A stretch of 64,000 bases of DNA from contig CANKWR010000003.1 of the NCBI GenBank assembly GCA_947487525.1, forward strand, positions 1 through 64,000. Reading direction: 5' to 3'. The notes beneath the pieces are model-generated. The model was not told the DNA's origin, ran no database searches, and was given only the letters and a program-made list of their open reading frames with translations. This document shows, one piece after another, positions 27,949 to 30,938 of this stretch; within the stretch, counting starts at the first letter, position 1; each line of letters opens with the position of its first letter. Source of the stretch: Bacteroidota bacterium (GTDB taxonomy: Bacteria > Bacteroidota > Bacteroidia > Chitinophagales > Chitinophagaceae). A program made the translations under genes and the position numbers.

Positions 27949-28851
27949 ATGAGTGCACCTACATTAGTGATTTTAGCAGCGGGCATGGCAAGTAGATATG
28001 GTAGTCAAAAGCAAACGGAAGGGTTTGGTCCCAATGGGGAAACCATTATGGACTATTCAATTTATGATGCGATAAGAGCTGGATTTGGCAAAGTGGTTTT
28101 CATTATTAGAGAAGACTTTAGCGAAGCTTTTAAGGCAAGTTTTGAGCCAAAACTAAAAGGCAAAGTAGCCACCAAATATGTTTTTCAAGCCTTGGATAAG
28201 TTTACGGAGGGGAAACAAATCAACCCCGATCGAATAAAGCCTTGGGGGACTGCCCATGCTGTATTGTGCACAAAAGGTATCGTGAATGAACCCTTTGCCG
28301 TAATTAATGCGGACGATTACTATGGAGCTGAGGCATTTGTGCAGGCGTATCAATTTTTAACGAAGGAATGCAATGACCAAACCTATTGTATTTTAGGGTA
28401 TGAGCTATCAAATACCTTAAGTGAAAATGGAACCGTGAGTAGAGGTGTGTGTAGTGTAGATGAAAACAATACTTTGACAAAAATTGTTGAGCGCACAAAA
28501 ATTTATAGAAAAGAAGGGGGTATCGTATTTGAAGAAGAGGGTATTGAAAGCCCATTGAAGGAAGACACTAGAGTGAGTATGAATTTCATGTGCTTTGCGC
28601 CTAATTTTATTGATTTTTGTGAGCAAGAGTTTGATCTTTTTTTAGAAAAACAAGGGCAAGCATTAAAATCAGAATTTTACATTCCTTATGTTGCCGGTCA
28701 ATTTTCTAATTTAGGATTAGGGGTTGTTAAAGTAATTGCTACCAATGCAAAATGGTTTGGGGTTACGTATAAAGAGGACGCTCCAATGGTAAAGGCCAAT
28801 ATTAATGCACTTGTTGCTGGCCATATTTATCCTGCCAACTTATGGAGTTAA
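27949..28851 (+). CDS. Sugar-phosphate nucleotidyltransferase-like protein
   Basis: 300-residue cytoplasmic protein with the NTP-transferase start LVILAAGMASRYGSQKQTEGFGPNGETIMDYSIYDA, the LAAGxxSR...KQ nucleotide-binding loop of GlmU/RmlA-type enzymes. VINADDYYGAEAF supplies the metal-binding aspartate. No C-terminal left-handed helix acyltransferase domain follows. Family members make NDP-sugars from sugar 1-phosphates, but the particular sugar is unknown, and no sugar pathway genes are adjacent. Monocistronic, with promoter and terminator both visible. Confidence 0.87.
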   Translation: MSAPTLVILAAGMASRYGSQKQTEGFGPNGETIMDYSIYDAIRAGFGKVVFIIREDFSEAFKASFEPKLKGKVATKYVFQALDKFTEGKQINPDRIKPWGTAHAVLCTKGIVNEPFAVINADDYYGAEAFVQAYQFLTKECNDQTYCILGYELSNTLSENGTVSRGVCSVDENNTLTKIVERTKIYRKEGGIVFEEEGIESPLKEDTRVSMNFMCFAPNFIDFCEQEFDLFLEKQGQALKSEFYIPYVAGQFSNLGLGVVKVIATNAKWFGVTYKEDAPMVKANINALVAGHIYPANLWS

Positions 28852-28888: not shown

Positions 28889-28924
28889 AAAAAAAAGAGT
28901 CAACGATTGTTGACTCTTTTTTTT
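28889..28924. terminator. Bidirectional terminator
   Basis: Eight A, GAGTCAAC, loop GATT, GTTGACTC, eight T. Serves the nucleotidyltransferase (plus) and the sigma/protease operon (minus). Confidence 0.88.
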
Positions 28925-28939: not shown

Positions 28940-30043
28940 TTAATTAAAAGAACGAATATTGTAAATATAATTTTTCAAATTGCTTATCTGCTTCTTTCTG
29001 TCACCAGATCCAGTTGATTTCTTTGTAAATTTTATGGAATTCTCTTTGGAAGCAGCTTCAATGACATCAAATATTTTTGATGATTTAATTGCGAAAGCAA
29101 CACCCTCTGCTTGTTTTTGACGTGTATTGATAATGCCAATAAGTTCCGCATTGTCATTGAAAACAGGCGCTCCAGAATAGCCAGGATTAGCACTAATTTG
29201 AATTTGGAATGCATTGCTATCTCCTTCAAAACCAGATTGCGCACTTAGGTATCCTTTACCATATACAATATCATTGTCGCTTCTTGGATAGCCTAGTGTG
29301 TATATTTCTTCTCCTAATTCAGTTTTCTTATTTCTAATTGAATATGGAATTGATTTTGGTTGTATAAAATCGGAGTCTTCTATTTTTAACAATGCCAAGT
29401 CACTTGCTTTATCGGTATAAATGATGGTAGCATTCAATTCCTGACCAGTACTACTTATTACGATAGCGTCATCCCCTTTTAAAACGTGTGCATTGGTGAT
29501 GATATAGCCTTTTATATCAATTAAAAATCCGGATCCTCCACTAATTAATTTCGCATTTTCTGGAAGCTTGGTTTTCACTTCATTTAATAAGTGTCCTTGT
29601 ACTTTTTGATTATTCTTGATAATCTCAATTGCTTTACTAAGCTGTAATACTTGAGAGCCATTTAAACTTGGTGAAAAATACATCATCATCACCGTGGTCA
29701 TCCCAGCGATAAATCCACCAACCGAAGCAGCAATGGCGGTTACTTTTTTGTATTTGCTCCAAAGCTGAATAACCTTGTATTTTGTAGAAGATTCGTTGAT
29801 TGGTGCCCAGGTTCCAGCTTCAAATAAAGTATTGAAAGTGATTTCAGATAATTTGGAGAAGTTTTTACGCTTTGCAAAGTTTTCCATTTCATGTAAAAAC
29901 ATGCTATGCTCAACCACCATTTGGTCGATATCTGGGGTACTCTTACGAATGGACTCAAATTGAGCAGCCTCTGTAGCGGACATTTTGCCTGCTAAGTACT
30001 TTTCAATCGCTTCTAATAATTGTATATCGTCCATTGTTGTCAT
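28940..30043 (-). CDS. Anti-sigma-like region fused to a membrane-anchored trypsin-like serine protease
   Basis: 367 residues with an unusual order. Residues 1-100 form a helical, predicted cytoplasmic region (MDDIQLLEAIEKYLAGKMSA..., typical of the N terminus of Bacteroidota anti-sigma and sensor proteins). Residues about 101-124 form one membrane segment (VTAIAASVGGFIAGMTTVMM). A short linker follows, then a DegP/HtrA-type S1 protease domain at about 165-330. The catalytic triad is intact: His186 (IITNAHVLKG), Asp215 (DKASDLALLKI), Ser290 (NPGYSGAPVF). No PDZ domain follows, only a basic tail. It ends the operon headed by the sigma factor, starting 9 bases after it. The inferred arrangement is sigma sequestration inside and proteolysis in the periplasm in one chain; direct regulation of the sigma factor is not proven. 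Confidence 0.85.
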   Translation of the reverse strand: MTTMDDIQLLEAIEKYLAGKMSATEAAQFESIRKSTPDIDQMVVEHSMFLHEMENFAKRKNFSKLSEITFNTLFEAGTWAPINESSTKYKVIQLWSKYKKVTAIAASVGGFIAGMTTVMMMYFSPSLNGSQVLQLSKAIEIIKNNQKVQGHLLNEVKTKLPENAKLISGGSGFLIDIKGYIITNAHVLKGDDAIVISSTGQELNATIIYTDKASDLALLKIEDSDFIQPKSIPYSIRNKKTELGEEIYTLGYPRSDNDIVYGKGYLSAQSGFEGDSNAFQIQISANPGYSGAPVFNDNAELIGIINTRQKQAEGVAFAIKSSKIFDVIEAASKENSIKFTKKSTGSGDRKKQISNLKNYIYNIRSFN

Positions 30044-30052
30044 TCTATTATT

Positions 30053-30643
30053 TTAATCTCCAATGTTGTATTGTGCAAAAAACAGCTTTTTCAACCGCAA
30101 CAAACATTTATATTTTTGGTTTTTGGCATTGTCTGAATTGGTGTATCCAAATTCTGCCGCTAAAGCTTGCATGTCCTTTTTATTCAAATAATACCCCTCT
30201 AACAAACTTTTGCAGGGTTCCCCAAGGCTGTTAAGTGCCCTGTCCATAATTGCAAAAGCAGCATCTTTTTTTGCAAAGTCGTCCATATCTATCTCCACCG
30301 ATACGGATTCTTCCTCGGTACTTAAGGGAGCGCTGTACTTCCCCATTTGTTGTAACCTTTTGAGCCAGAGGTGTTTACAAATAGAAAATAGGTAGGTTTT
30401 TATTTGACAGGTAAGTGAAAATGAGTCGGTTTGTACTTTTTCATACAAAGTAATCATCGCTTCCTGAAAAACATCCCTTGCATCATCCAAAGAGCCGTTA
30501 TTGTTGGTAACGAAATGCTGAATCATACCAAAATGGCTCTTATATAGCGCTTCTACCGCTCTAGAGTCATTGTTTGCGAGCCCTTTTAAAAGGGCTTGTT
30601 CGTTGTATTCGGCTTTCAATAGATTAATACTTTGTGAGGTCAA
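30053..30643 (-). CDS. RNA polymerase sigma-70 family factor (ECF type)
   Basis: About 190 residues with sigma region 2 (ALYKSHFGMIQHFVTNNNGSLDDARDVFQEAMITLYEKV, then IKTYLFSICKHLWLKRLQ) and region 4 (LGEPCKSLLEGYYLNKKDMQALAAEFGYTNSDNAKNQKYKCLLRLKKL), with no region 1 or 3. The ORF-track start is a TTG that lies within a perfect -7 element (TACTTTTG), so translation may instead start at the TTG at 30619 or a nearby non-ATG codon; no in-frame ATG exists before region 2. The protease fusion follows immediately and is the probable cognate regulator. The promoter overlapping the start hints at autoregulation, but this is inference. Confidence 0.88.
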   Translation of the reverse strand: MTSQSINLLKAEYNEQALLKGLANNDSRAVEALYKSHFGMIQHFVTNNNGSLDDARDVFQEAMITLYEKVQTDSFSLTCQIKTYLFSICKHLWLKRLQQMGKYSAPLSTEEESVSVEIDMDDFAKKDAAFAIMDRALNSLGEPCKSLLEGYYLNKKDMQALAAEFGYTNSDNAKNQKYKCLLRLKKLFFAQYNIGD

Positions 30644-30648
30644 AAGTA
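30641..30648 (-). promoter_or_regulatory. -7-like element overlapping the annotated sigma-factor start
   Basis: Minus-strand TACTTTTG (TAnnTTTG). Its last three bases are the TTG that the ORF track uses as start codon, so either the promoter or that start is wrong. Confidence 0.4.
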
Positions 30649-30755
30649 ACCCAAATTGCTTATTTAATTTATTTTTTGCTTTTTTGAGGTACTGGGGGTT
30701 ACCTTTTAGCAGTTTCTGTATTAAAAGTATAAATTAATAATTAAAACCTTTCCAA

Positions 30756-30938
30756 ATGAAAAAAGTATTCGCAATTTTCGCTATCGCTGCATTAACTGCT
30801 TGTGGTGGTGCTTCAACTGAAGCAAAAACTGACACTGCTGCTACACCGGTAGACACTGCTTCTACATCTGTAGACACTGCTGCTAAAGCTTTAGATACTG
30901 CTGCTAAAGCGGTTGATACTGCTGCTAAGAAGAAGTAA
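30756..30938 (+). CDS. Small alanine/lysine-rich lipoprotein with DTA(A)K repeats
   Basis: 60-residue lipoprotein: a signal peptide ending in the lipobox LTAC (cysteine near residue 16), then a low-complexity mature part of repeats such as TPVDTASTSVDTAAKALDTAAKAVDTAAKKK. No fold is expected; the Ala/Lys/Asp pattern could form a helix. Similar tiny repeat lipoproteins occur in Bacteroidota with no assigned role. At DNA level the unit GATACTGCTGCTAA recurs. It stands alone, divergent from the sigma factor, and is followed by terminators, so it is probably an abundant short mRNA. Possible target of the adjacent sigma factor (inference). Confidence 0.75.
   Translation: MKKVFAIFAIAALTACGGASTEAKTDTAATPVDTASTSVDTAAKALDTAAKAVDTAAKKK

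Follow-up and report, generated by a model that had tools for sequence, protein, structure and literature searches.

Anti-sigma factors of the RseA type are cleaved stepwise, by a site-1 protease outside the membrane and then by RseP within it. The locus described here raises the question of whether an anti-sigma factor can carry a site-1 protease of its own. It lies at positions 28940-30643 of the window, the whole 64,000-nucleotide stretch of Bacteroidota DNA that was analyzed. We conclude that the locus very probably encodes an autoregulated pair of sigma and anti-sigma factor in which a protease has been fused to the latter. In outline it resembles a small sensor, complete in itself, of stress or of the state of the envelope.

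Gene layout and the protease chain

Two open reading frames on the minus strand make up the locus. The first, read at 30053-30643, is an ECF sigma gene, and a gap of 9 bases separates it from the downstream gene of a 367-residue fusion chain (28940..30043; open reading frame, Pfam matches, and homologue alignment), as the initial annotation had described. An AT-rich hairpin with T runs on either side (28894..28919, no strand assigned) is a probable terminator common to the fusion gene and a convergent gene at 27949-28851.

The sigma protein consists of regions 2 and 4 only and exceeds the cut-off of the sigma70-ECF profile, as expected of an ECF sigma factor. It is matched by Pfam Sigma70_r2 (5.2e-6) and by NCBIfam sigma70-ECF (TIGR02937, 1.3e-16), the latter at 60.7 bits where the cut-off is 42.9 and with positions 2-163 of 165 covered. 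Pfam calls region 2 only, and a sigma factor lacking region 4 was considered; this was ruled out by the sigma70-ECF profile, which spans the entire protein. The true start is most likely the TTG of codon 9 at 30619, 24 bases inside 30643, because homologues carry GTG at the same position and because codons 1-6 of the longer reading frame fall within an invariant promoter-like motif (30625-30652). The proposed gene (30053..30619, minus strand) would encode 188 residues, a placement that draws on the profile match, start-codon and promoter conservation, and alignment. Similarly, the fusion chain may start at its fourth codon, an ATG at 30034, where homologues begin.

All segments of the fusion chain are read from the minus strand. 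Residues 1-80 (29804..30043) form a cytoplasmic anti-sigma-type domain, assigned by structure prediction and by profile and fold comparison, with predicted helices at 3-18, 23-35, and 37-75. Exactly one hydrophobic membrane segment follows, at about residues 101-123 (29675..29743), with positive charge on the cytoplasmic side. A periplasmic helical linker of residues 124-164 (29552..29674) contains a helix at 129-155 and a conserved NEV-x-x-K-x-P motif with NEV at residues 154-156, and leads into an HtrA/S1C protease domain at residues 165-335 (29039..29551). The chain ends in a conserved tail of residues 336-367 (28943..29038) that is shared with a secreted paralogue. The earlier description of a helical region, one membrane segment, and an HtrA-type protease in a single chain is thus borne out by Pfam, hydrophobicity, and prediction.

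HtrA profiles cover only the protease part of the chain, and Pfam Trypsin_2 matches residues 170-304 at 4.1e-25. The nearest solved fold to this domain is DegS without its PDZ domain (E 1.2e-10). The domain has both the trypsin fold and the His-Asp-Ser triad that define the HtrA/Deg (S1C) proteases. The triad had been annotated as intact at H186, D215, and S290; the numbering is correct, and all three residues are invariant in 144/144 distinct homologues. We predict with high confidence that the S1C domain is active. The reported absence of a PDZ domain also holds, with no match in the chain to Pfam or NCBIfam PDZ profiles even at E<=1.

The N-terminal domain and its pairing with a sigma gene

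The source genome groups with the genus Sediminibacterium, its named matches being S. goheungense, S. magnilacihabitans, and S. ginsengisoli. The fusion is present in most genomes of this group, among them the strains S. goheungense DSM 28323 and S. ginsengisoli DSM 22335, and in most of the family Chitinophagaceae. Within the class it also occurs in three other families (f23, f29, and f30), and a single genome from a different family of the order (L197) has it too. Protease and anti-sigma part form a single chain in all homologues examined. In other families of the phylum, protease matches are for the most part confined to the protease domain. Among 142 distinct loci of the fusion, the sigma gene was found directly 5′ in 141, which establishes sigma factor and fusion as a conserved pair. 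The fusion is missing from two members of the genus whose genomes are near-complete: G001 gave no match at all and G013 only a DegP-like protease, so that the fusion is not essential to the genus. Three family members at first thought to be without it (G232, G264, and G270) proved to encode a diverged fusion beside a sigma gene. No relative was found in the viral contigs searched.

When residues 1-130 of the fusion were made into a profile and run across the order, shorter proteins were matched at low scores, and 14 weak-match regions were fetched and inspected. A sigma gene adjoins the match in all 14. Three of the proteins carry RskA_C, the anti-sigma-K domain, and the one of these three that was checked adjoins a SigK-like sigma gene. 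In seven the C-terminal part is TPR-like; four of these were scanned with Pfam, and three gave matches above the cut-off. The remainder comprise three further fusions and one protein of another kind. With the membrane helix excluded (first 84 residues), all 14 still scored higher than every one of several thousand shuffled sequences. As these proteins had been preselected by the 130-residue profile, this result checks consistency and does not count as independent evidence. The only PDB folds retrieved with the predicted N-terminal model at E<=10 were RslA and RsiW, both anti-sigma factors, at values that are not significant (E 3.8 and 9.9). A class I anti-sigma domain (ASDI) has a bundle of three helices and a fourth helix, and is encoded beside its sigma gene; the fusion shows three predicted helices and a remote profile match to RskA-type proteins, and its gene adjoins a sigma gene.

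Taken together, the RskA and TPR profile matches, the RslA and RsiW folds, and the gene order make an anti-sigma role of the N-terminus highly likely, and in such a role it would bind the sigma factor. The initial reading of this region as anti-sigma-like gains from a profile that reaches both RskA anti-sigma factors and sigma-linked TPR proteins. Outside the protease no Pfam domain matches the chain above the cut-off, and no Pfam anti-sigma domain is called. This, together with the remoteness of the sequence match, would also suit an N-terminus that is a positive or neutral membrane tether instead of an anti-sigma domain, with the sigma pairing reflecting co-transcription only. Such a tether is hard to reconcile with a sigma gene beside every fetched match and with the RskA_C anti-sigma factors among them, and we regard it as highly improbable.

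An anti-sigma role places the fusion beside SigK/RskA and other class I systems, which share its order of sigma gene then anti-sigma gene, although RskA bears the periplasmic RskA_C domain where the fusion bears its protease. The sigma-linked TPR proteins of Bacteroidota likewise pair the same N-terminal domain type and a membrane helix with a position 3′ of a related sigma gene, and have a TPR-like C-terminal part in place of the protease. Seven loci (L193-L196 and L198-L200) show this arrangement, in which TPR-like repeats follow the shared type of N-terminal domain beside a related sigma gene. In one survey, class I anti-sigma domains were linked to no more than about 6% of the ECF sigma factors of Bacteroidetes, against an average of 32% over all phyla (PMC7406223). 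Remote domains of the anti-sigma type, fused to a protease or to TPR repeats, would offer one account of where the missing Bacteroidetes regulators are.

A promoter-like motif and its predicted targets

The promoter-like motif before the sigma gene (30625..30652, minus strand) reads GGGTTAC-N15-GTATTA. With a spacer of 15 or 16 bases it is found upstream of the sigma gene in 132/138 testable loci. Its two boxes are near-completely conserved per base, and most of the spacer and the flanks show low conservation. The window contains exactly two copies, and none occurred in 100 shuffles. The second copy (30696..30723, plus strand) precedes a divergent gene for a small lipoprotein of 60 residues, rich in Ala, Thr, Asp, and Lys (30756..30938, plus strand), which we predict to be a target. 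A divergent small lipoprotein gene with the motif upstream is present in 122 of 142 loci, compared with 0 for a reversed-motif control, and a recount found the gene divergent from the operon in other families too. The motif also accompanies a lipoprotein gene of this kind in two genomes where it lies apart: in G036 it is 54 kb from the operon, and in G144 such a gene is likewise away from the operon, with the motif still upstream in both.

An additional predicted target is unlinked to the sigma operon. In the genome of the window, a 95-residue AMPK1_CBM/CBM48-like protein (L176, G000:C7:54366-54650) is encoded downstream of a GGGTTAC motif, and at least 12 of 13 motif bases are retained in 21/26 orthologues (reversed control, maximum 10). 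Where the fusion is missing, a motif site of this kind is mostly missing as well. Because the motif is autoregulatory in position and co-occurs with the system, it is very likely read by this sigma factor. Control by the sigma system thus very probably extends to its own operon and a handful of small genes, and motif and targets together would give a direct readout of sigma activity.

Other occurrences of the motif were noted. In three genomes it lies upstream of secreted-looking proteins of about 141-181 residues (L154, L181, and L183), and in the window's own genome a near-copy precedes the gene of a 209-residue, probably exported protein (L177, G000:C24:4235).

Possible roles of the fused protease

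The RseA/DegS/sigma-E system of E. coli offers a close parallel, with a membrane anti-sigma factor, a periplasmic protease of HtrA type, and an ECF sigma factor. There the site-1 protease and the anti-sigma factor are separate proteins, whereas here they are one chain. DegS activation relies on its PDZ domain and cannot apply as such to a chain that has none, so another activation would be needed. A candidate gene for the subsequent intramembrane step is available, as the genome encodes an RseP-type (S2P) protease (PF02163, 186.6 bits, G000:C77).

These elements suggest a model. In the resting state the N-terminal helical domain would keep the sigma factor bound to the membrane, until a signal in the periplasm, which might be unfolded protein or some other ligand, switches on the S1C domain. 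The activated domain would then cut the periplasmic linker, either in the same chain or in that of a neighboring copy. An RseP-type protease would next cut the membrane helix and release the sigma factor, and the free sigma factor would use GGGTTAC-N15/16-GTATTA to transcribe the operon that encodes it, along with the genes of the small lipoprotein and the AMPK/CBM48-like protein. We infer both the RseP step and the nature of the signal as parts of this model. Self-cleavage, which would fall within linker residues 124-164, with the conserved NEV at 154-156 as a speculative cut site, is favored because the protease lies outside the membrane in the same chain, because an RseP-type gene is present, and because HtrA self-cleavage has a precedent (PMC5359297). 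That precedent, HtrAw of Brevibacillus sp. WF146, is held in the membrane by an N-terminal anchor, which it removes itself, one molecule cutting another, once substrate is available (PMC5359297). HtrAw has a PDZ domain and no described anti-sigma role, in contrast to the fusion. On this basis the chance that self-cleavage triggers sigma release falls just short of even. For the full model, in which a fused site-1 protease of DegS type starts sigma release within the anti-sigma chain, the odds appear balanced. A more specific version, which we offer tentatively, is a one-protein site-1 switch: an anti-sigma factor with its own working HtrA that undergoes self-destruction without PDZ sensing. 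Such a switch would be shared by several families of one bacterial class, and both its promoter and its small regulon would be fixed.

The initial annotation had set this locus apart from RseA and DegS. The contrast between one chain and two proteins is fair, but the fusion does have a precedent in RsgI9 of Clostridium thermocellum, where an S1C peptidase-like domain is likewise part of an anti-sigma factor (PMC12203970). Like the fusion, RsgI9 is a one-pass anti-sigma factor whose S1C-like domain lies outside the membrane. The partner here is an ECF sigma factor and that of RsgI9 is SigI, and the N-terminal anti-sigma domain of RsgI9 belongs to another class. The fusion also differs in having a conserved promoter and targets, an invariant triad, and a protease placed directly after the membrane helix and linker, with no extra autocleavage domain. 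Polysaccharide (cellulose) binding is the reported function of the S1C-like domain of RsgI9, and cleavage occurs in a separate autocleavage domain (PMC12203970). By analogy, a protease-like domain on an anti-sigma factor need not be the cutter. The S1C domain of the fusion could then be mainly a ligand-binding sensor, as the C-terminal domain of RsgI9 suggests, with another protease doing the cutting, and a carbohydrate signal would suit the CBM48-like protein among the predicted targets. That protein, however, is without an obvious export signal and need not meet sugar outside the cell, and binding alone would not demand three catalytic residues that are invariant in 144 sequences. We consider this reading quite unlikely.

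Returning to the fused site-1 protease, the chain provides a simple system in which to ask whether a PDZ-less HtrA can serve as its own site-1 protease. The idea of such a fusion is already known from RsgI9, and an ECF group with this partner may already have been described; a partial literature search, with the main ECF classification outside its coverage, found no description of the Bacteroidota fusion.

The protease could also be an output of the system. The anti-sigma part would then work without self-cleavage, through a conformational change or another site-1 protease, and the S1C domain would be a periplasmic quality-control enzyme, with its amount set by the sigma factor through feedback. 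The operon bears the same motif as the targets, and active sigma factor should therefore raise the amount of protease. The persistent joining of protease and anti-sigma part over at least four families is left unexplained by a role as effector, which seems somewhat unlikely overall. A secreted paralogue bears on the same point. This secreted-looking protein of 554 residues (G000:C80, locus L002, 1415-3079) shares the protease and the C-terminal tail with the fusion, and has a different N-terminus without an anti-sigma part, which indicates that the domain can be a stand-alone enzyme. Relatives carrying the protease without a neighboring sigma gene had been named as evidence against the proposed stress switch. 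Among the fusions this does not arise, but the secreted protease does occur elsewhere in the genome with no sigma gene within the 3.5 kb read around it. A protein similar to this paralogue is also encoded in another family.
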